Virus record (IMG/VR): IMGVR_UViG_3300006735_000153
Coordinates: 1 to 29,196 of that record
DNA from: a virus
Strand: one strand, 5' to 3'
Length of the DNA stretch: 29,196 nt
In this document: one piece after another, positions 1,805-28,977 of the stretch
How positions within the stretch are numbered: the stretch's first letter is position 1
Layout of the letters: each line of letters starts with the position of its first letter
The notes under the pieces: generated by a model
What the model saw: only the letters and a program-made list of their open reading frames with translations
Databases searched by the model: none
Told to the model about the DNA's origin: nothing
Program-made: the position numbers and the translations under genes

Positions 1805-2248
1805 ATGGTTGAAGAGGGAACTTATGAAAACCCCTGGGTATACAAAGATTCAGCTTTCACTTCTGATGATATTGGCGACTTCTTCGGTTTTGTCTACAGG
1901 ATTACAAATAGGAAAACTGGGAAGAGATACATCGGACGTAAATACTTTACCCAGTGTAGAAAGCCTAGAGGTAGCAAAAGAAGGGTTACGTCTGAGAGTG
2001 ACTGGAAAAAGTACTACGGAAGTTCTCCAGAGCTTAAAGAAGACATTAAAAATATTGGAAAATTCCTCTTTAGGAGAGAAATCCTAGCACTTCAACCCAC
2101 TAAAGGGAAAGTAAACTACGAGGAGACAAGACAATTATTTTTAAATAATGTCCTACAAGAAACATTGGATGATGGTACACCAGCATACTACAATAGTAAC
2201 ATACTAGGTAGGTATTACCGTAAAGATTATTTTAACCATGAAACTTAA
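1805..2248 (+). CDS. GIY-YIG-like nuclease domain protein
   Basis: The protein has 147 residues. The segment FGFVYRITNRKTGKRYIGRKYF (residues 28-48) matches the two opening strands of the GIY-YIG fold: FVY in place of GIY, then YIG at 42-44. SDWKKYYGSS (65-74), FRREIL (89-94) and a conserved-looking Glu in NYEETRQLF (104-112) follow in the order expected for the Arg/Glu active site. It is a stand-alone domain without an obvious DNA-binding tail, unlike the larger Seg homing endonucleases of T4. The ATG at 1805 is used because no in-frame start lies upstream before a stop. The end overlaps the next gene by 11 bases. Its role could be cutting of host DNA, recombination or homing; it could also be a structural derivative of the fold with no activity. 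Family assignment is likely, the specific role is open. Confidence 0.65.
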   Translation: MVEEGTYENPWVYKDSAFTSDDIGDFFGFVYRITNRKTGKRYIGRKYFTQCRKPRGSKRRVTSESDWKKYYGSSPELKEDIKNIGKFLFRREILALQPTKGKVNYEETRQLFLNNVLQETLDDGTPAYYNSNILGRYYRKDYFNHET

Positions 2249-2687
2249 CGAAGTAGGAAGAATTAGAAAGCATCAAATATATTATTCAGCCATGATGGTT
2301 GATGATTACAACTGGAATATTTCATTAAAAGATAAAATTCTTAGAGGTGACGTTGATGGTAGGGCATATGATACCTTTAAGAAACTGGTTACAAATTTTA
2401 TCAATGAGAATTTTGATTACAAATTTAAACCAGTCGAACTAATACCAACAGCAACTGATCCAAGCGAACCTTCTCTGAAGGAAGAGTATTGGCCAGCTGC
2501 TTTGACTGCTGTTTACATTGTTCAGTCTAAAGGTGGTAAGTATCTCTTTGAAGAGAGTTCATTTTGGGATGCAAATGAGGGTGAATTGACTATATTCCCA
2601 TCAACTTGCTCATTTCAAATGCTAGGTTCCAACTCACCTATCTTAAGAGTAATCATAAATTATGATGTCGAAAGAGAAAGTACATAA
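2238..2687 (+). CDS. Degenerate double-stranded beta-helix protein related to the downstream 2OG-Fe(II) oxygenase
   Basis: The product has 149 residues. Its C-terminal half aligns by eye with the next gene: LTAVYIV against LSAVYFV, then EGELTIFPS against EGTLIVFPS, then RVIIN against RVIIS. That is the core of the jelly-roll oxygenase family PF13759. At the metal sites of the neighbour (H124, H126 and H169), this protein has E82, Y84 and F126. All three putative iron ligands are therefore missing, while the scaffold and the Arg near the cosubstrate site (R137) are kept. The family relation is inferred from shared spacing and sequence. The product is probably not a canonical iron oxygenase; it may be a partner subunit or a pseudoenzyme. 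The gene overlaps both neighbours (11 and 26 bases), so it sits firmly in this operon. Confidence 0.6.
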   Translation: MKLNEVGRIRKHQIYYSAMMVDDYNWNISLKDKILRGDVDGRAYDTFKKLVTNFINENFDYKFKPVELIPTATDPSEPSLKEEYWPAALTAVYIVQSKGGKYLFEESSFWDANEGELTIFPSTCSFQMLGSNSPILRVIINYDVEREST

Positions 2688-3261
2688 AGCAGGTAAAAAT
2701 CTATATGTTACTGCTAAAAAGGTAAGTATAGACCTAGATGTATTCACTGTTAAGTTTCCTATCTGGGAACAAGAGAACGTGAAGTACAGAGAAAAAATAT
2801 TTGAACTAAGAGAGGAGATGCCTGAAGGTTTTGACCTCCAGAAAGGTAATACAACGTGGCATTCTCTCTACACATTACACCTTGATAACACTAGAACGTT
2901 CAATCCTTTAATACAGTTTACTAAACACACATGTGAGTATGCTGCTAGGTATATACTGAAGACACCAGCAAATTTTAGTCTGTATAATATGTGGGCAATG
3001 ACTTATGATGAGGGTCAAGAGACTCTGATTCATAATCATTTTCCTTCTTGTCTTTCTGCTGTATATTTTGTTGATGTTGAGGACAATGCAGCACCTCTCA
3101 TGCTAGGTAATGATGCAATACAACCAGAGGAAGGAACACTTATAGTATTCCCTAGTCTAATACCCCATTATGTACCTCCTACAGAGGGTAAAAGGGTGAT
3201 AATATCCATGAATTTAGAAGGAGATTCTAAAGAAAAATTTAAGATGAGTCAGATGGGCTAG
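2662..3261 (+). CDS. Putative 2-oxoglutarate/Fe(II)-dependent oxygenase (PF13759-like)
   Basis: The protein has 199 residues from the first of two consecutive ATGs (2662 or 2665). Residues 109-183 read as the catalytic jelly roll of the 2OG-Fe(II) oxygenase group common in marine phages: NMWAMTYDEGQ, then HNHFPSCLSAVYFV, then EGTLIVFPSLIPHYV and GKRVIISMN. H124 and H126 with H169 are the likely iron ligands, and R178 probably holds the 2-oxoglutarate carboxylate. The N-terminal part (residues 25-110) is predicted helical and is less recognisable. The substrate is unknown; hydroxylation of a protein, nucleic acid or small molecule all remain possible. The start lies inside the preceding gene, which encodes a related fold without iron ligands, so the two may act as a pair. 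Confidence 0.72.
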   Translation: MMSKEKVHKAGKNLYVTAKKVSIDLDVFTVKFPIWEQENVKYREKIFELREEMPEGFDLQKGNTTWHSLYTLHLDNTRTFNPLIQFTKHTCEYAARYILKTPANFSLYNMWAMTYDEGQETLIHNHFPSCLSAVYFVDVEDNAAPLMLGNDAIQPEEGTLIVFPSLIPHYVPPTEGKRVIISMNLEGDSKEKFKMSQMG

Positions 3262-3275
3262 GATATACATACTAT

Positions 3276-3506
3276 ATGTGTTATAATCCTAACATCACCA
3301 GCAAACCAATGATTAACTTAGACGAAAGATACCACGATTACTTAGGTGGTAAGAAAAAATTTAGAATTGATAACAAGGAAGAGAAAGTTGATGCTTATGG
3401 TTGGAACTGTGATGGTAACGACATCGTTGGGTACTATGTATTGACAGAAAACTATCTTTTGAACTATAATATGAAGGAAGAGGTTCAGAAAGTTGAACCG
3501 AGATAA
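3276..3506 (+). CDS. Small hypothetical protein, 76 (or 65) residues
   Basis: The product is a short, soluble, charged protein without membrane segment or recognisable motif. Residues from MINLDERYHDYLGG onward look best conserved in style. Two starts are possible: ATG 3276 (76 residues) and ATG 3309 (65 residues, beginning MINLDERY). A TGT-TATAAT extended -10 box at 3279-3287 lies over the first codons of the long form. If that box is a real promoter, transcription would begin near 3294 and only the shorter form could be made from it. The stop codon overlaps the ATAAATA motif in front of talC. No function can be proposed. Confidence 0.55.
   Translation: MCYNPNITSKPMINLDERYHDYLGGKKKFRIDNKEEKVDAYGWNCDGNDIVGYYVLTENYLLNYNMKEEVQKVEPR
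3279..3287 (+). promoter_or_regulatory. Candidate extended -10 promoter element (TGT-TATAAT)
   Basis: A perfect TATAAT at 3282-3287 is preceded directly by TGT, which makes an extended -10 of the sigma-70 type that can work with a poor -35. I see no good -35 at the usual spacing. Initiation would fall about 15 bases before the ATG at 3309. It resembles the TGC-TATACT element at 6488-6496. Confidence 0.35.
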
Positions 3507-3509
3507 ATA
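3503..3509 (+). promoter_or_regulatory. Candidate late promoter before talC (ATAAATA)
   Basis: ATAAATA overlaps the stop codon of the preceding gene and ends 20 bases before the talC ATG. It fits the T4-type late promoter and has the same spacing as the copies at 22052 and 28973. It would drive the six-gene cassette that begins with talC. In some cyanophages metabolic genes are transcribed before the virion genes, so late control here would need testing. Confidence 0.42.
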
Positions 3510-3529
3510 GATAGTCAAGCAATTTTGTG

Positions 3530-4213
3530 ATGAAATTATTTTTAGATAGTGCGGTTGTCGGAGACCTCTGTGACCGTTACGATACTGGTTTAATTGATGG
3601 GGTTACTACTAACCCTACGTTGATTCTAAAGTCAGGTAAGAAACAAGAAGATGTTATCTCTCAGATAGCACAACTATGTCCTAAACTAGAATCTATCTCT
3701 GCTGAAGTTGTTGCAAACACAGCAGAAGAAATGCTTGAACAAGCAGAATACTACACTAATCTCTCACCAAAGGTAACTATTAAGGTTCCTTGTACACCAG
3801 AGGGTTTACGTGCCTGTAAAAAATTGAGTGATCAGGGTATCAAAGTAAATGTTACCCTGATTTTTTCTGTTTCTCAGGCTATTTTATCTGCTAAAGCAGG
3901 TGCAGCTTACCTATCACCTTTCGTTGGTCGTGTAGATGACCAGAGATTTGGTGGTGTCGGTCTAATCAAAAGGATTAGAGAGGTGTTGAGTCCATACTGG
4001 ACAGAAAACCAACGAGGTAAGAGACCAGCTCCAGAGATACTAGCAGCATCTATACGTACAGTAGCTGATGTTGAGTATAGTTTCGCACAAGGAGCAGATA
4101 TATGCACCATTCCTAATAAAATTTTTGATGGTATGTATGACCATATGCTCACATCAAAGGGCATAGAGTTATTTGATCGTGATTACTCTCTTGCTCTTTC
4201 AGAAAACGAATGA
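3530..4213 (+). CDS. talC: Transaldolase, small FSA/TalC type
   Basis: The product is 227 residues, the usual length for the FSA/TalC group of class I aldolases. FLDSA opens the barrel with Asp6, and DGVTTNPTL, VTIKVPCTPEGL with Schiff-base Lys85, NVTLIFS and SPFVGRVDD follow. Lys85 has the same number as in E. coli fructose-6-phosphate aldolase. Residue 131 is Phe (SPFVGR), not the Tyr that marks fructose-6-phosphate aldolases, so transaldolase activity is the better call: moving a dihydroxyacetone unit between sugar phosphates in the pentose phosphate pathway. Cyanophage talC is a known auxiliary metabolic gene thought to push host carbon flow toward NADPH and ribose for phage DNA synthesis. 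A GTG one codon upstream (3527) is open, but ATG 3530 restores the conserved MKLFLDSA start. The stop overlaps the glutaredoxin start. Confidence 0.95.
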   Translation: MKLFLDSAVVGDLCDRYDTGLIDGVTTNPTLILKSGKKQEDVISQIAQLCPKLESISAEVVANTAEEMLEQAEYYTNLSPKVTIKVPCTPEGLRACKKLSDQGIKVNVTLIFSVSQAILSAKAGAAYLSPFVGRVDDQRFGGVGLIKRIREVLSPYWTENQRGKRPAPEILAASIRTVADVEYSFAQGADICTIPNKIFDGMYDHMLTSKGIELFDRDYSLALSENE

Positions 4214-4470
4214 TGCTTACGATTTATTCTAAAGAAGGTTGTCCTTATTGCGATAAGTTTATACAGGTGTGTGAACTTGAAGACTTACCACATGTGGTCT
4301 ACAAACTAGACAAAGAATTTACTAAAGATCAATTTACTCATGTATTTGGTGAGGGTGCTACGTTCCCTCAAATACAATTAGATGAGGATGGTGCTGATAG
4401 AGTCCACTTAGGTGGATGCACCGACTCCATTTCATTTCTACAAGAAAAACAACTGTGCTGCATGGTATGA
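4210..4470 (+). CDS. Glutaredoxin
   Basis: The product has 86 residues with a complete thioredoxin-fold signature. The dithiol active site CPYC is in YSKEGCPYCDKF, ATFPQIQL carries the cis-proline, and GGCTDSISFL is the glutathione-binding loop. This is a classical dithiol glutaredoxin that reduces disulfides with glutathione. The obvious phage client is ribonucleotide reductase, whose beta subunit is encoded at the left edge of the window. Two ATGs stand together (4210 and 4213); either gives the same fold, and the first makes a 4-base ATGA overlap with talC. The C-terminus has an unusual extra CC pair (QLCCMV) that could be redox active or simply decorative. Confidence 0.92.
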   Translation: MMLTIYSKEGCPYCDKFIQVCELEDLPHVVYKLDKEFTKDQFTHVFGEGATFPQIQLDEDGADRVHLGGCTDSISFLQEKQLCCMV

Positions 4471-4670
4471 TTGAAATTACACATGAAGAATTTGAAAACG
4501 GATACGAAGAATACCTAACAAAAATTGAAGGAGGAGAGCAGTTTCTAATCAGACTACCTAGTGGTCGTGTGATTGCTGCTGTACCTCAGTCTGCTGTTGG
4601 TAGTTCTGAGTATGTACATCCTTGGGATAAATATAATGAATCTGTGGAAGAACTACACGAAGACACTTGA
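4467..4670 (+). CDS. Small protein resembling Phd/YefM-type antitoxins
   Basis: The product has 67 residues from an ATG that overlaps the glutaredoxin stop (ATGA). Longer in-frame starts inside the glutaredoxin gene exist but lack that coupling. The first 41 residues follow the pattern of the Phd/YefM N-terminal domain: ITHEEFENGYEEYLTKIEGGE, then QFLIRLPSGRVIAAVP, which is a helix ending in EGGE, a strand, and a turn with GRVIAAVP. In that family this part dimerises and binds operator DNA, and a disordered tail neutralises a toxin. No toxin gene adjoins it: the next gene is pebS, which begins 35 bases before this one ends. It could act as a phage-borne antitoxin against a host toxin, as a transcription regulator, or be an unrelated look-alike. 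Confidence 0.5.
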   Translation: MIEITHEEFENGYEEYLTKIEGGEQFLIRLPSGRVIAAVPQSAVGSSEYVHPWDKYNESVEELHEDT

Positions 4671-5262
4671 TGATATATTCCCTGAGTTCAAGTTTGAATC
4701 TCGGTGGTGTAACTGGTGTAACAAGGATGATCTAACAATGACGGCAGACACCTATGCTGCCCCACATTTTATTAAGTCTAGAAGGGTTGATATCACTAGC
4801 GATAAGACTCATATCTATAATAATGTAATGTATCCTAAGACAGGAAGTTATCTTCCTTGTTTTGGGATGGATCTCATGGGTTTCTTTGAGAAGAAAGTCA
4901 TCATAGTATTTGACTTCCAACATCCAGTTGAAAAGTTTTTGTTTTCTTTACCCAATTTACCTAAAGCAGAGAAAAACTATCGGTTCTTTGAGATGGGCAA
5001 CCATTTTTCAGAGAATATTTTTGTTAGGTACTGTACCTTTGATGAGGTTGATAACTATCTACCTGAGTTCAGAAAATATCTAGAAACCTATCGTAGTATA
5101 GTTGATGAAGCACAACCTACTGGTGAGGACACCACACAGTATGAAGACTTTGATACTTACATGAAGAAACTTGATCCTATATTAGGATACCTTAGTAGTA
5201 ATTTTGGTAAGGTAAATGCTAATCAAATGATGGAAGAATACTTCTTCCCTTATTCACGATGA
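4636..5262 (+). CDS. pebS: Phycoerythrobilin synthase (ferredoxin-dependent bilin reductase, PebS type)
   Basis: The product is 208 residues from ATG 4636 (MNLWKNY). An open TTG start farther upstream would add a hydrophobic stretch not expected in the family. The sequence follows PebS of cyanophage P-SSM2 closely as I remember it: LYPKTG-type MYPKTGSYLPCFGMDL, VIIVFDFQHP, YRFFEMGNHFS, NIFVRYC, GEDTT and a C-terminal LDPILGY. The two catalytic Asp residues known from PebS (D105 and D206 there) are present as D79 and D180. PebS reduces biliverdin IX-alpha in two ferredoxin-dependent steps to phycoerythrobilin, and is found in phages, where it replaces host PebA plus PebB. A heme oxygenase gene, which would supply biliverdin, is not in this window. 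The start overlaps the preceding gene by 35 bases and the stop overlaps the next gene as ATGA. Confidence 0.93.
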   Translation: MNLWKNYTKTLDDIFPEFKFESRWCNWCNKDDLTMTADTYAAPHFIKSRRVDITSDKTHIYNNVMYPKTGSYLPCFGMDLMGFFEKKVIIVFDFQHPVEKFLFSLPNLPKAEKNYRFFEMGNHFSENIFVRYCTFDEVDNYLPEFRKYLETYRSIVDEAQPTGEDTTQYEDFDTYMKKLDPILGYLSSNFGKVNANQMMEEYFFPYSR

Positions 5263-5438
5263 AAAAAGCAGGTGAAGTTATAGGTAATCCTCTATGGTTT
5301 ACCCCAATGATGCTACTAGCAGTACTATTACTGATAGAGGGTCTTCATACCTCTGCACACCTACATCAAGAGATAGATGTACATGGTGTATGCAGACAAA
5401 ACAAAGAGTATATTCAGTCACTTGAGGACGCATTGTGA
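5259..5438 (+). CDS. Small single-pass membrane protein, 59 residues
   Basis: An ATG overlaps the pebS stop (ATGA) and the frame runs 59 codons to a TGA that itself overlaps the GTG start of the next gene (GTGA). This double coupling is the main argument that it is real. The product starts MKKAGEVIGNPLWFTP and has one strongly hydrophobic segment at about residues 15-28 (MMLLAVLLLIEG is its core). A His-rich turn (HTSAHLHQE), one Cys (VHGVCRQ) and a charged end follow. It is likely inserted in the host membrane with a short N-terminus. It may assist the multi-pass membrane protein encoded immediately downstream. I recognise no family. Confidence 0.7.
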   Translation: MKKAGEVIGNPLWFTPMMLLAVLLLIEGLHTSAHLHQEIDVHGVCRQNKEYIQSLEDAL

Positions 5439-6466
5439 TTAAAATATTAGAATCAATAGCACAGAAAGAACTCTACATGGGTTACATCTTTGGTATTATG
5501 ATACTAGGTGGATACATTAGAGAATATCATGTGCTTAATGATGTATATTCATTAGCAAAAAGATATGTAAAAGATGCTCGCATCATGATTATTATTACAT
5601 CATTGATAGGAGGAGTCTTACCAATACCAGGTAGAGTTGCATTGTCAGCACCATTACTAGATGCTATAGCACCACCTGATAAAAAGAGAAGAAGTAAATT
5701 TGGTATCATAGATTATCTTTCCACACATCATTACTATTGGTGGTCACCATTAGAGAAGACAATCATTCTTCCTATGGCAGCACTAGGTATAACGTATGGA
5801 GAGATGCTACACTATACTTTCGCACCTCTCCTTATATGTCTTGGATACACTTGGTGGTATATTTTTAGTAAGGTAGATCCTCAAAGTGTATTACCTAACA
5901 TGGATGGAATACAAGACTTTAATTGGAAGAGAGCATTAAGAGGTTGGGCTCCATTCATAGCAACGATATGGTTCTTATTATGTGTAGGTAAAGCAGGGGC
6001 AATCCTATTCTTTCCTTGGTTTGCTGCTATGTGTTGTTACTATGCATGGTTATGTAAAGATTGGAACTGGGGTAAGTATATCAATAAACAGTTTGCAATT
6101 ATATCTACAATAGTTTTAGCACTAGGTGGTGTAGTAGGATTGATTAAAGAACCAGTCATGGTATATCTTAAGTCAGCAACACCAGAAATGATTATACCTG
6201 TGACTCTTGTAGGTATGGTAGCAGCGTGGATCATGGGATCATCAAGCAAGTATGCAGGGATGACATCTGCTCTTGTGTTAATTTTCGGACCTAAGTATCT
6301 TGTATGGTTCTTAGCAACAGAGTACTCTGGTTACTTACTATCCCCTGCACACAAGTGTTTGATGATAGGACAGCAGTATTTTGGTACACCAATTCGTAAA
6401 TATTATAAGGTACTTGGCCAATTATGTGCTATACTAATAGCATATGCATTCTTCACAACTTTTTGA
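5435..6466 (+). CDS. Multi-pass membrane protein resembling DUF401, transporter-like
   Basis: The product has 343 residues from a GTG that overlaps the previous stop. By eye there are about nine to ten hydrophobic spans (roughly 14-30, 48-62, 109-126, 128-146, 170-185, 187-206, 220-237, 252-268, 274-295, 328-343). Signature-like loops are VLPIPGRVALSAPLLD (61-76), IDYLSTHHYYWWSPLE (92-107) and EYSGYLLSPAHKCLMIGQQYF (296-316). These recall the PMPGG...SAP, NYWFRH and LLSPxHLC loops I associate with the DUF401 integral membrane family, grouped with ion-transporter folds. The protein is shorter than most members and seems to lack part of the N-terminal half. Its substrate is unknown. It ends the talC-to-pebS cassette, so a role in host metabolism during infection is plausible. 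A second candidate -10 sequence lies in its last codons (6430-6435). Confidence 0.72.
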   Translation: MIKILESIAQKELYMGYIFGIMILGGYIREYHVLNDVYSLAKRYVKDARIMIIITSLIGGVLPIPGRVALSAPLLDAIAPPDKKRRSKFGIIDYLSTHHYYWWSPLEKTIILPMAALGITYGEMLHYTFAPLLICLGYTWWYIFSKVDPQSVLPNMDGIQDFNWKRALRGWAPFIATIWFLLCVGKAGAILFFPWFAAMCCYYAWLCKDWNWGKYINKQFAIISTIVLALGGVVGLIKEPVMVYLKSATPEMIIPVTLVGMVAAWIMGSSSKYAGMTSALVLIFGPKYLVWFLATEYSGYLLSPAHKCLMIGQQYFGTPIRKYYKVLGQLCAILIAYAFFTTF

Positions 6467-6520: not shown

Positions 6521-7006
6521 ATGTCCTGTTCACTTATACGCAAGCACCTAGAAGCTGCAGAGGAAGAGATACGTCAAGCACTTGTCGCTTCAATAGACAA
6601 GAAGCATGAAGAGAATCTCACGCTACTAGTTGATACACTTAACAATGTTAAGGAGTTGTTAATTACTACTCCTATTCGTGGTACAGATAACACACACGAG
6701 TACTACAAAAAGAATGCAGAGCACAACTTTAAGTTGGAGTCTCCTTATATGGATAGTAATGTTATCAATTTCCCAACTACTATTCCTGGTATAGATCCAG
6801 TTGATTTTACAGTTGGTGATGGGATAACAGGTAATATAGATTTCGATCCTCTAACCATAGACGGTGATATTCATATCAAAGGTGCAATGGGTGATGATAC
6901 TATTACATTCAATGCAGATGGATTGATTACCAACACTGGTGATATCAATATTGATACAAGACCAGGTGGAGAACTGGATTCTTTAGACGGTAAGGAAAAA
7001 AATTAA
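6521..7006 (+). CDS. Hypothetical protein, 161 residues, in its own transcription unit
   Basis: The N-terminal 50 residues are helical with heptad-like leucines (SLIRKHLEAAEEEIRQAL, LLVDTLNNVKELL) and could form a short coiled coil. The rest, from about residue 75, is Asp/Gly/Thr-rich with alternating hydrophobics (LTIDGDIHIKG, DDTITFNADGLITNTGDINID), which looks like a small beta-solenoid or fibre-shaft segment. There is no signal peptide or membrane span. The gene lies between a sigma-70-type promoter and a strong terminator and so appears monocistronic, which is unusual here. I do not recognise a family. It could be a small trimeric fibre or decoration protein, since the fibre block starts just downstream, but an early promoter would argue for another role. 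Confidence 0.75.
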   Translation: MSCSLIRKHLEAAEEEIRQALVASIDKKHEENLTLLVDTLNNVKELLITTPIRGTDNTHEYYKKNAEHNFKLESPYMDSNVINFPTTIPGIDPVDFTVGDGITGNIDFDPLTIDGDIHIKGAMGDDTITFNADGLITNTGDINIDTRPGGELDSLDGKEKN

Positions 7007-7013
7007 TATCAAC

Positions 7014-7035
7014 AACCCCCTTCGGGGGGTTTTTT
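7014..7035 (+). terminator. Rho-independent terminator
   Basis: The stem AACCCCC / GGGGGTT closes on a TTCG loop (7014-7031), followed by a T run (7030-7035). It is the only strong intrinsic terminator seen in the window. It separates the 6521-7006 gene from the fibre block. Confidence 0.92.
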
Positions 7036-25866: not shown

Positions 25867-28800
25867 ATGTCTGAGTATCTTGTAACAGTTAAGGATGCTT
25901 CTTGTTTAAATGAATTCTATGCAGACATGGAATTCAGAGGGTATCCTCGTACCATAAGGAAACCTCTCAGTAGATCAACTGGATATGAATTAACAGATGA
26001 ACAGGTAAAGGTACTCAAAAGAGATTCAAGAGTCCTTGAGATAGAATTAAGACACCCTGAAGGTGTAGTTAATAAACCAATGGGTGCTGTTAACTACGAA
26101 CCATACAGTATCCTAGGAGATTTTAGTAAACTTTCTACCACTAGTAGTAGTCAGTCTGACGAAAGACAGTGGGGTCACATTCATCATGGTGGAACAACAG
26201 CACAAAGAAGGTATGGAGATACTCCTGGTACAGTAAACAGTACTTCATGGAATACTGGTACAGTTAATGATAGAGTTGATGTTTTTAATGATGGTAAACA
26301 CGTAGATATAGTTATATTTGATACACCAGTATCATATGATCATGCAGATTGGATAAGTGAAGAGACAGGATTAACTAGGTTTGTGCAGTATGATTGGTTT
26401 GCTATGCACAACAATGAGGTTATAGGTGGGTTGGATAGTGATGGTTATGCATCACCTGGATCTAACTATGTTTATGGTACAGCAGTTCAACATGGATCTG
26501 CTGCATATCATGGTACTCATGTGTGTGGTACGGTTGCTGGTAAACACTTTGGATGGGCAAGAGAAGCAAACATATACAGCATCAATGTATTAACTTCAGG
26601 TACAACTCAAACATATCTTACCACTGAACTAGCATTTGATTATGTTAGGGCGTTCCATAGAAACAAACCTATCAATCCTGTTACTGGATTTAAAAACCCA
26701 ACGATCATAAACTGTAGTTATGGTTCTGGTTATGATCTCAGTGAAACATATCCAAGTGGTGTTCAGGCATCAAATGTTCGTGCTATCTTGTATAAAGAAA
26801 GACTTTATGATGATGGTGTTATTGGATTTGATGGTACTGCTGGAACCTCTGTTGGTTTGAGAGGTGTGACTACGATCTGGTCAACGGGTGAGATCCAACG
26901 TTTGTTTGGTGTGACTGGTAATGAGTTTCCATATTATTCCACATCTAATGGTGCTGATGTTGAGGATGCTATTGCAGATGGTATAGTTGTAGTTAAAGCA
27001 CATGGTAATGATGACTCACCAAGATCAGGAGATCATCATGAGAAAGCAGGTTCAACTCTAGTAAGTATGGATGGTAACCTGAGAGACAGTAGAATGTATC
27101 TTGATAATGGTTGGTCATATTATTATTGTAGAACAGCGAACCCATATGCACCAGGAATTATTAGTGTTGGTGCTTTGACTCCAGCAGTAAATTATAATTC
27201 AAGTACCACATATCCAGCTTACGGTAGTATCCCAGTAAGTTTTAGTAACCGTGGTATCGATACACATGTCTGGGCTGCTGGTGTTTATATTGCTAGTGTC
27301 TACCCACCAAATGCTAGTGGTGGATACCAAGATACTAAACCTGGTTATACTGCTGGTGTTGATTACTTCAGAGCAATTAGTGGTACTAGTATGGCTTCAC
27401 CTCAAGTTGCAGGTGTGTTAGCATGTTATGCTACTGGTAGAGAAAGATTTAACTCAGCAGATGCTCATAGGTATCTACAAAAAACATCTAATACAACAGA
27501 GATGTTCACTGATAACTGGGCAAAGAACTACCCTGCAACTGTTAGAAAGAGTTTACCAATAGATATCACTGCTAATGGTACTGATATACTTGTTGGTGGT
27601 CAGGACAGAGCAAGGGACATAGGACCCAATGCAATTACTGATAATAGTATAAGAATTGAGTGCTTAGATACCTTAAACTTTACCTTACAAAATCCTATAG
27701 AGCATAACTGGAGAATAGTTAAAGGTAGTAGCAATGGATTGGTTGGTGCTACGATTAACATCGATGATCCATCACAGTATCCACATGAAATAGTAGCAAC
27801 TGAAGCTGGTGGTATGATAAACTGGACACCAGGTATTGATGACGTTGGATTCTATTGGTTGGTGTGTGGTTGTTCCTTGCTTCCTAATCATAATGGACAA
27901 CCAAATGCACATACTAATGGTAATGAAATTTTAATTGTTGTTGACCCACCTGGATGTTGGGATGATAGTATGAATGCTGGTGGATCATCTAAACGTCTGC
28001 TGCAAGCATCTCCCACAAGACCATCTACAGGTTTGATGACTGAATGGTGTCATGAGAAGGGTAATAGATGGGGATTAGGACGTGCTGGATTGGAGATGGA
28101 ACATAGAGGTAATAGAAAAAACAGAGCAATCATAGGAACTGGTGAGAATCTATGGCCAAGACAGAACACTCTCAATAATTCTATTAATGGATACCAACCT
28201 CAAGGTGATGCTATCTTTACAACAACTGGTAATTCAGATTGGGTTTGTCCTACAGGAGTAACATCAGTTTGTGTAGTAGCAATTGGTGGAGGTGGTGCTG
28301 GAGGACCAGATGGTAGTAGCTATACTGGTGGAGCTGCTGGAGGTGGTGGACTTGGGTGGAAGAATAATATATCTGTAACACCAGGTCAATCGTATACTGT
28401 AGTCGTTGGTGCTGCTGGTGTTGGTGGTACAAGAGATGATGGTGGAGATTCTTATTTTATAAACTCATCTACCGTTGCAGGTCTTGGAGGTAAGGGAACT
28501 GATATGACTTCTGGTTCTGGTCAAGGTGAGTATGGTGGATACGGTGGATCATATACTGGAGATGGTGGTGGTAACGGTGGTCGAGGTGGTGAAGCAAACA
28601 CTGGAGCATATGAAGGTGGAGGTGGAGGTGCTGGTGGATACTCAGGAAATGGTGGAAATGGTGGACATGGTACTGGATATCAGACACCAACAGAACCTTA
28701 CAATCGTTTTGGAGGAGATGGTTCAGGTGGTGCTGGTAGTGGAGGAGCATACGGCGGTGGATATATAGGTGGTGGTACTGATCTATATGGAATAGGACCT

Positions 28801-28977
28801 AATGGTATTGGTACTGAACTTAGAAGTGGTATGAGAGGTAGTGATCCTGACAGTACAATTACTTCTGCGTATGGTGGAGGTGGATCAGGTGCTGGTATTA
28901 CAGGTGGTGATGGTGCAGTAAGAATTATATGGGGTACGAATAGATCATTCCCAAGTAATGCAGTCATAGATGTATAA
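25867..28977 (+). CDS. Subtilisin-like serine protease (S8) fused to a C-terminal glycine-rich domain
   Basis: The product has 1036 residues. Residues 1-65 (EYLVTVKDASCLNEFY, VKVLKRDSRVLEIELR) resemble an I9-type propeptide. The S8 catalytic domain follows: D152 in VDIVIFDTP, H215 in YHGTHVCGTVAG, oxyanion N381 in KAHGND, and S508 in GTSMASPQVAG, so the triad is complete. Beta-rich linker domains lie from about 560 to 700 (INWTPGIDDVGFYWLV). From about residue 780 comes a domain starting FTTTGNSDWVCPTGVTSVCVVAIGGGGAGG and running to GGDGAVRIIWG, a glycine-rich (Gly_rich_2-like) domain of phage fibres. No signal peptide is present, so it is probably a virion component rather than a secreted enzyme. 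Possible roles are cleavage of fibre or virion proteins during assembly, or attack on host surface protein at adsorption. GGAAG lies about 10 bases before the ATG. Confidence 0.88.
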   Translation: MSEYLVTVKDASCLNEFYADMEFRGYPRTIRKPLSRSTGYELTDEQVKVLKRDSRVLEIELRHPEGVVNKPMGAVNYEPYSILGDFSKLSTTSSSQSDERQWGHIHHGGTTAQRRYGDTPGTVNSTSWNTGTVNDRVDVFNDGKHVDIVIFDTPVSYDHADWISEETGLTRFVQYDWFAMHNNEVIGGLDSDGYASPGSNYVYGTAVQHGSAAYHGTHVCGTVAGKHFGWAREANIYSINVLTSGTTQTYLTTELAFDYVRAFHRNKPINPVTGFKNPTIINCSYGSGYDLSETYPSGVQASNVRAILYKERLYDDGVIGFDGTAGTSVGLRGVTTIWSTGEIQRLFGVTGNEFPYYSTSNGADVEDAIADGIVVVKAHGNDDSPRSGDHHEKAGSTLVSMDGNLRDSRMYLDNGWSYYYCRTANPYAPGIISVGALTPAVNYNSSTTYPAYGSIPVSFSNRGIDTHVWAAGVYIASVYPPNASGGYQDTKPGYTAGVDYFRAISGTSMASPQVAGVLACYATGRERFNSADAHRYLQKTSNTTEMFTDNWAKNYPATVRKSLPIDITANGTDILVGGQDRARDIGPNAITDNSIRIECLDTLNFTLQNPIEHNWRIVKGSSNGLVGATINIDDPSQYPHEIVATEAGGMINWTPGIDDVGFYWLVCGCSLLPNHNGQPNAHTNGNEILIVVDPPGCWDDSMNAGGSSKRLLQASPTRPSTGLMTEWCHEKGNRWGLGRAGLEMEHRGNRKNRAIIGTGENLWPRQNTLNNSINGYQPQGDAIFTTTGNSDWVCPTGVTSVCVVAIGGGGAGGPDGSSYTGGAAGGGGLGWKNNISVTPGQSYTVVVGAAGVGGTRDDGGDSYFINSSTVAGLGGKGTDMTSGSGQGEYGGYGGSYTGDGGGNGGRGGEANTGAYEGGGGGAGGYSGNGGNGGHGTGYQTPTEPYNRFGGDGSGGAGSGGAYGGGYIGGGTDLYGIGPNGIGTELRSGMRGSDPDSTITSAYGGGGSGAGITGGDGAVRIIWGTNRSFPSNAVIDV
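28208..28950 (+). repeat. Glycine-rich low-complexity coding region
   Basis: This region encodes about 240 residues, with glycine runs interrupted by Tyr, Ser, Ala and Asn (GYGGSYTGDGGGNGGRGG is one example). The DNA is dominated by GGT and GGA codons. Such segments fold as packed polyglycine-II helices in known T4-like adhesins of the S16 gp38 type; applying that here is inference. Confidence 0.75.

Follow-up and report, generated by a model that had tools for sequence, protein, structure and literature searches.

A probable mosaic metabolic operon of T4-like cyanophages, with a constant talC-nrdC-phd front, a variable cargo slot and a mobile DUF401 gene

Virus record IMGVR_UViG_3300006735_000153 of IMG/VR (29,196 bases, analysed over its whole length and referred to as the window) comes from an ocean virus, a cyanomyovirus as judged from gene content, and carries a string of six overlapping genes. 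These encode a transaldolase (TalC), an NrdC-type glutaredoxin, a Phd-like protein, a phycoerythrobilin synthase (PebS), a "mini" membrane protein, and a predicted transporter of the DUF401 family. The question raised by the locus is whether genes packed in this manner also work together. An earlier note on the same DNA had proposed that they do, with the three genes of then unknown function locked to talC and pebS. All six open reading frames (ORFs) and five overlapping junctions given in that note were exact on recheck, and its gene identities hold in profile matches. The four-base overlaps are ATGA at 4210, 4467 and 5259, and GTGA at 5435, while pebS (from 4636) and phd (to 4670) have 35 bases in common. 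The talC frame is open already from GTG 3527, with ATG 3530 preferred as the start, and the start codon called for DUF401 is supported by the presence of ATG at this position in a relative (L009). Overlapping coding junctions are, however, frequent in these genomes (21 of 56 in three annotated isolates), and therefore the overlaps alone are no evidence of a special unit. In our reading the string is probably a mosaic operon of auxiliary metabolic genes (AMGs) of a T4-like cyanophage, which consists of a constant talC-nrdC-phd module, a cargo slot, and a mobile DUF401 gene for a putative anion exchanger.

Gene neighbourhoods were surveyed around 80 DUF401, 80 pebS and 19 mini protein matches from IMG/VR, in a second DUF401 scan, and in phage isolates. 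In 45 of 48 distinct loci the gene before phd is nrdC or talC, phd overlaps the preceding gene in 46 of 47, and the same pairing is present in phage isolates. T4-like cyanophages carry talC-nrdC-phd as a constant module, and to this extent the proposed locking of unknown genes is borne out. Among the 48 distinct loci, the gene after phd is DUF401 (27), pebS (14), or c69/c61 (4). The backbone gene g604 has DUF401 (16), c69 (9), c50 (4), or c8 (1) in front of it. A variable cargo slot is located between phd and g604, and in this phage it is occupied by pebS and the mini gene together with DUF401. In keeping with their known roles, TalC would act on pentose-phosphate flux, the glutaredoxin would provide the redox supply for ribonucleotide reductase, and PebS would serve bilin synthesis.

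No solved relative of the Phd-like protein was found by sequence. In the structural model, its N-terminal fold matches the DNA-binding domain of phage P1 Phd (1.2-1.3 A over 45 columns), which also occupies the top Foldseek rows (probability 1.00; E value about 0.01). Unlike the Phd/YefM antitoxins, of which P1 Phd is an example, the window protein has no toxin gene beside it (the next gene is DUF401, pebS, c69 or c61 in 45 of 48 loci), and the toxin-binding region of the tail is not conserved, the C-terminus being variable across relatives. Given the missing toxin gene and the variable tail, it most likely binds DNA as a regulator in its own right. Short tails recur in a group-specific manner (PCDI, HDDAS, and HDDGA) in the product of window 4467-4670 and its relatives. 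Two of three chemostats in which S-PM2 coexisted with Synechococcus reportedly gave rise to mutations in the nrdC1/PhdYefM overlap of this phage (PMC9910659).

The proposed locking does not extend to DUF401. In 125 distinct loci, the gene upstream of DUF401 is a 2-oxoglutarate (2OG)-Fe(II) oxygenase of one of two families in 49 (loci that are not independent of each other), phd in 26, and the mini gene in eight; MazG-like or ThyX-linked genes, both named by eye, precede it in others. In total, DUF401 was found in about ten unrelated positions, and unrelated positions in sister phages were the very outcome that the earlier note had named as speaking against its proposal. The order pebS-mini-DUF401 is restricted to two of the 125 loci, namely the window and one near-copy. 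At least 24 switches between gene contexts were counted on a tree of 60 DUF401 sequences, for which the minimum would be 5. The DNA of the window ORF shares 99.5% identity with that of L009, which has the same context, and 97.9% and 97.4% identity with those of L010 and L011, respectively, in both of which the homology with the window is confined to the ORF, stopping at its start and stop codons, and the flanks are of unrelated sequence. Two sisters (L089 and L169) have 97% DNA identity to the window over positions 2200-5428, resuming from 6465, and carry a 110-residue ORF (c50, phrog_1248) with three hydrophobic segments where the window has DUF401. DUF401 moves between virus genomes alone, as an ORF-exact unit, and it would have arrived in the present slot by exact ORF replacement. 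The ORF is under constraint, since its differences to L011 comprise 20 silent and 7 replacement changes. The occurrence of the same gene at different positions in related phages, by which mobile cyanophage AMGs are recognised, is seen for DUF401.

A gene for a SegE-type endonuclease is located near DUF401 in 27 of 28 phd, pebS and 2OG-CpeT contexts and in none of 20 U32-2OG contexts. Because of the latter absence, homing by this endonuclease could account for no more than part of the exchange. In many phages, a 574-residue family of unknown function (phrog_1458; L001:2521-4245), by eye a fusion of U32-type and methyltransferase-like parts, precedes the 2OG oxygenase and DUF401. Mobile carbon-metabolism cassettes have been described in T4-like cyanophages, including zwf-gnd-petE-PTOX as well as talC and cp12 in variable positions (PMC3037559). 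The string in the window resembles them in being a series of AMGs of variable position with endonuclease genes nearby. It differs in its constant talC-nrdC-phd front followed by a swap slot, and in the exchange of DUF401 as a single ORF with breaks at the start and stop codons.

As to the cassette being one unit, the earlier proposal is upheld for its probable transcription. A sigma-70 type promoter sequence, overlooked in the earlier note, is present upstream of talC. When the pattern TTGAC[AT]-N16-19-TA[TA]A[AT]T was scanned within 140 bases upstream of genes, it was found before 18 of 49 distinct talC genes, not all of which are independent loci, versus 81 of 2845 other genes. The upstream DNA that contains the talC matches is unrelated between loci (the ends of g3276 and of a GIY gene, as well as other DNA), and the case for a promoter of the talC unit is good but not conclusive. 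The late-type motif ATAAATA, described earlier as standing singly before talC, has a second copy at 4627, just before pebS; with 7 copies in the window versus 11.2 in shuffles, that is, fewer than expected, it was rejected as a signal. The claim that no terminator is visible inside the string proved correct for strong terminators. Because the first of these lies after g604, this gene is probably the last of the unit. On these sequence signals, a single transcript would likely run from talC to g604, with the talC-nrdC-phd module read from the sigma-70 promoter to this terminator. Published time courses place AMGs, including talC, in the middle period: in P-HM2 their expression is confined to the middle cluster, and talC ranks among the most strongly expressed (PMC5082946).

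The window DUF401 protein matches PF04165 at 48.6 bits (curated cut-off 24), and all 51 phage members match it with E values up to 0.01. The phage proteins are about 50 N-terminal residues shorter than cellular DUF401. While the window protein exceeds the Pfam cut-off, it reaches 50 bits against a cut-off of 378 for the cellular family TIGR00529 (AF0261). The mini protein was considered as a substitute for the absent N-terminus and rejected, as most DUF401 loci have no adjacent mini gene. No solved relative of DUF401 was found by sequence, hhalign of its two halves revealed no internal repeat, and its profile weakly matches a cyanobacterial CitMHS/Na_sulph_symp protein. An AlphaFold2 model was built from the 51 phage sequences (predicted local distance difference test, pLDDT, 75.9; predicted template modelling score, pTM, 0.75). 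The structural Z scores were 22.5 with AtDiT1 of plastids and 22.3 with the dicarboxylate exchanger LaINDY, over 334-338 residues; about 19-21 with NaDC1, NaS1 and Pho90, over the full length; 13-14 with ArsB and TRAP subunits; 7-10 with CNT nucleoside transporters; and below 6 in other rows. The model fits a two-repeat elevator fold with hairpins and broken helices, and it is likely that DUF401 shares the fold of the DASS/INDY-type anion transporters along all 343 residues, despite a sequence identity of 9-10% to LaINDY and AtDiT1. Four basic residues (Arg67, Lys108, Lys272, and Lys307) are invariant in the 51 phage sequences and lack basic counterparts at the aligned positions of the one bacterial member compared. 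LaINDY-type exchangers employ Arg159 and His392 as Na+ surrogates (PMC7553777). By analogy, the invariant residues of DUF401 give a hint of an exchange mode.

PF04165 scored over the cut-off in none of 300 host-family genomes and in one of 292 phylum genomes (L333, on a GC-rich contig which may be a contaminant). A pattern scan of 84,980 species genomes gave no match to the phage subfamily, a plasmid search gave one bacterial DUF401 and no others, and the only other viral structural match was a 346-residue protein of the Ralstonia jumbo phage RP12. The gene is abundant in cyanophages, two seven-residue patterns having retrieved 223 DUF401 matches from IMG/VR. The product is annotated as a hypothetical protein in isolates, and our literature search found no cyanophage paper on it. 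Host-derived AMGs are defined by a homologue in the host lineage, which was not found for DUF401, and as the family was not detected over the cut-off in the host-family genomes, the gene has not been copied from a host in the recent past. In our view DUF401 most likely acts as a membrane transporter of the elevator type that exchanges anions, much like LaINDY, and that the phage brings in as the host itself lacks a gene of this kind.

As for the substrate, the two best structural matches carry dicarboxylates and 2OG oxygenases are frequent neighbours; for these reasons a dicarboxylate is tentatively favoured, with 2OG as a candidate at less than even odds. It has been proposed by Sullivan et al. 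2010 that cyanophages modulate 2OG (PMC3037559). A serious rival, if itself somewhat unlikely, is that DUF401 carries an inorganic dianion (sulfate, phosphate, or an arsenate-like ion) and thereby aids the uptake of a limiting nutrient in the infected cell. NaS1 and Pho90 are nearly level with the dicarboxylate carriers (Z about 20-21) and cyanophages are known to carry pstS and phoA, but DUF401 was not found beside these genes in the annotated isolates, and the top two structural matches are dicarboxylate carriers. More speculatively, and at rather long odds, a truncated DUF401 exchanger found only in phages might give infected hosts that lack the family a new route for the exchange of 2OG or other dicarboxylates, feeding or draining the 2OG pool, with its gene spreading as a lone ORF by way of fixed docking sites of phage operons. 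If so, the pool concerned is the one that controls NtcA/PII nitrogen signalling and many 2OG-dependent oxygenases of the phages.

Several points weigh against the operon with a mobile anion exchanger as we read it. In the window, the sigma-70 match overlaps the coding sequence of the upstream gene. The confidence of the AlphaFold2 model is moderate and its alignment shallow (effective number of sequences about 1.5), and although Foldseek puts the DASS/INDY-type family first, no E value falls below 0.001. SNT substrate motifs are a hallmark of the DASS family. This signature is absent from all 343 residues of DUF401, in which SPLEK and SPAHK are conserved instead; for this reason DUF401 is credited with the same fold but not with membership of the DASS family. 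The phage proteins also lack the first helices of the family. Furthermore, the substrate is not given by a fold which sulfate and phosphate carriers have as well. The adjacency of 2OG genes, which make up 120 of 2131 ORFs of 100 residues or more, was noticed post hoc, and in the window no 2OG oxygenase adjoins DUF401.

Based on sequence analysis, the pebS product is a predicted phycoerythrobilin synthase, an enzyme that reduces biliverdin to phycoerythrobilin with four electrons. It matches PF05996 (E value 1.7e-15), phrog_7278 (2.4e-57), and PebS of P-SSM2 (PDB: 2VCK; 2.2e-69), with which it shares the family over the full length, and both catalytic aspartates of the latter, Asp105 and Asp206 (changed to Asn in 2X9I and 2X9J), have counterparts in Asp79 and Asp180 of the window protein. 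In contrast to P-SSM2, the window pebS is in a different gene neighbourhood, and no heme oxygenase gene was found in the 29-kb record. The mini protein, which consists of one transmembrane helix followed by a His/Cys-rich tail, is encoded within two genes after pebS, often immediately behind it, in 38 of 97 pebS loci. The pair is embedded in various gene orders (behind phd, gp32 or pcyA) and is a real recurrent linkage. Nevertheless, the mini gene has no constant partner in the six isolates inspected, where it adjoins phoA, pstS, hsp20, gp32 or hli genes; it is not an exclusive partner of pebS and, contrary to the earlier note, not locked in this sense. Other pebS loci offer further observations. 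In L176-L180 the gene order is 2OG oxygenase, pebS, NfuA-like, CpeT, outer-membrane protein and mini, which brings bilin synthesis, an Fe-S scaffold and a lyase-like gene into close proximity. Several contigs (L012-L017) have pebS and a PcyA-type reductase upstream of talC-nrdC-phd-DUF401. In the single-cell phage AG-345-P14 (L004:6342-6635), a ferredoxin gene lies three genes after pebS and is a possible electron donor of PebS.

Could the six genes still form one functional unit, with the mini protein and DUF401 moving a bilin, a metal or an organic acid for PebS or TalC? The overlaps, the likely shared transcript and the recurrence of the pebS-mini pair would agree with such a unit, which is nevertheless very improbable and, as regards DUF401, largely refuted: the transporter gene follows pebS-mini in just the two loci mentioned, c50 replaces it in near-identical sisters that retain pebS-mini, and the majority of pebS loci have no DUF401 nearby. 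Pigment movement is unsupported because DUF401 and the mini protein are not tied to pebS; an organic acid or another anion is plausible from the fold. Just as doubtful is a role of the mini protein as a small subunit that assists DUF401, comparable to SiaQ in TRAP transporters. DUF401 has a fold in common with TRAP membrane subunits, and the eight loci with mini directly before DUF401 represent two unrelated gene orders, but the remaining 117 of 125 have another or no recognised upstream gene, and in isolates the mini gene is present far from DUF401 or without it. An assembly artefact as the source of the swap pattern is hardly credible even though metagenomic contigs are the source of the window and most relatives, given that every junction type is seen in several independent contigs, that phd-DUF401 and 2OG-DUF401 junctions are present in complete phage genomes, and that the homology breaks fall at ORF ends.

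The features of the region are collected in the table. Elsewhere in the window, a 1036-residue ORF (25867-28977) closes the tail-fibre block; it has a subtilase domain (PF00082; E value 1.8e-17) and a Gly-rich C-terminus.

Table. Features of the six-gene string and its surroundings in the window
Feature	Coordinates	Strand	Matches
SegE-type GIY-YIG endonuclease, upstream of the string	1805..2248	+	
Sigma-70 type promoter TTGACA-N18-TATAAT (12/12 match), putative promoter of the unit	3441..3470	+	
ATAAATA, late-type motif of the earlier note, chance level	3503..3509	+	
talC, transaldolase	3530..4213	+	PF00923 9e-47; phrog_440
nrdC-type glutaredoxin with CPYC	4210..4470	+	PF00462 3e-5 (weak)
Phd-like DNA-binding domain protein, no toxin partner	4467..4670	+	phrog_375 4.5e-8
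pebS, phycoerythrobilin synthase	4636..5262	+	phrog_7278, PF05996, PDB 2VCK
Mini membrane protein, 59 residues	5259..5438	+	phrog_27060/2587
DUF401 transporter (putative), INDY-like predicted fold, ORF-exact exchange unit	5435..6466	+	PF04165 1e-12; phrog_14035
g604 (phrog_604), backbone gene, distal end of the cargo slot	6521..7006	+	
Strong intrinsic terminator AACCCCCTTCGGGGGGTT-TTTT	7014..7031	+	

The front half of the string is a module of a known type, and the interesting part is the mobile DUF401 gene, with a likely anion-exchanger fold that is apparently absent from the hosts. Its ORF-exact swaps provide a clean natural example of how metabolic operons are assembled by these viruses. 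If the proposed reading is true, infected cells would gain a transport function not encoded by Prochlorococcus and Synechococcus, instead of a copy of one of their own, and the proposal that cyanophages manipulate 2OG would gain a testable gene.

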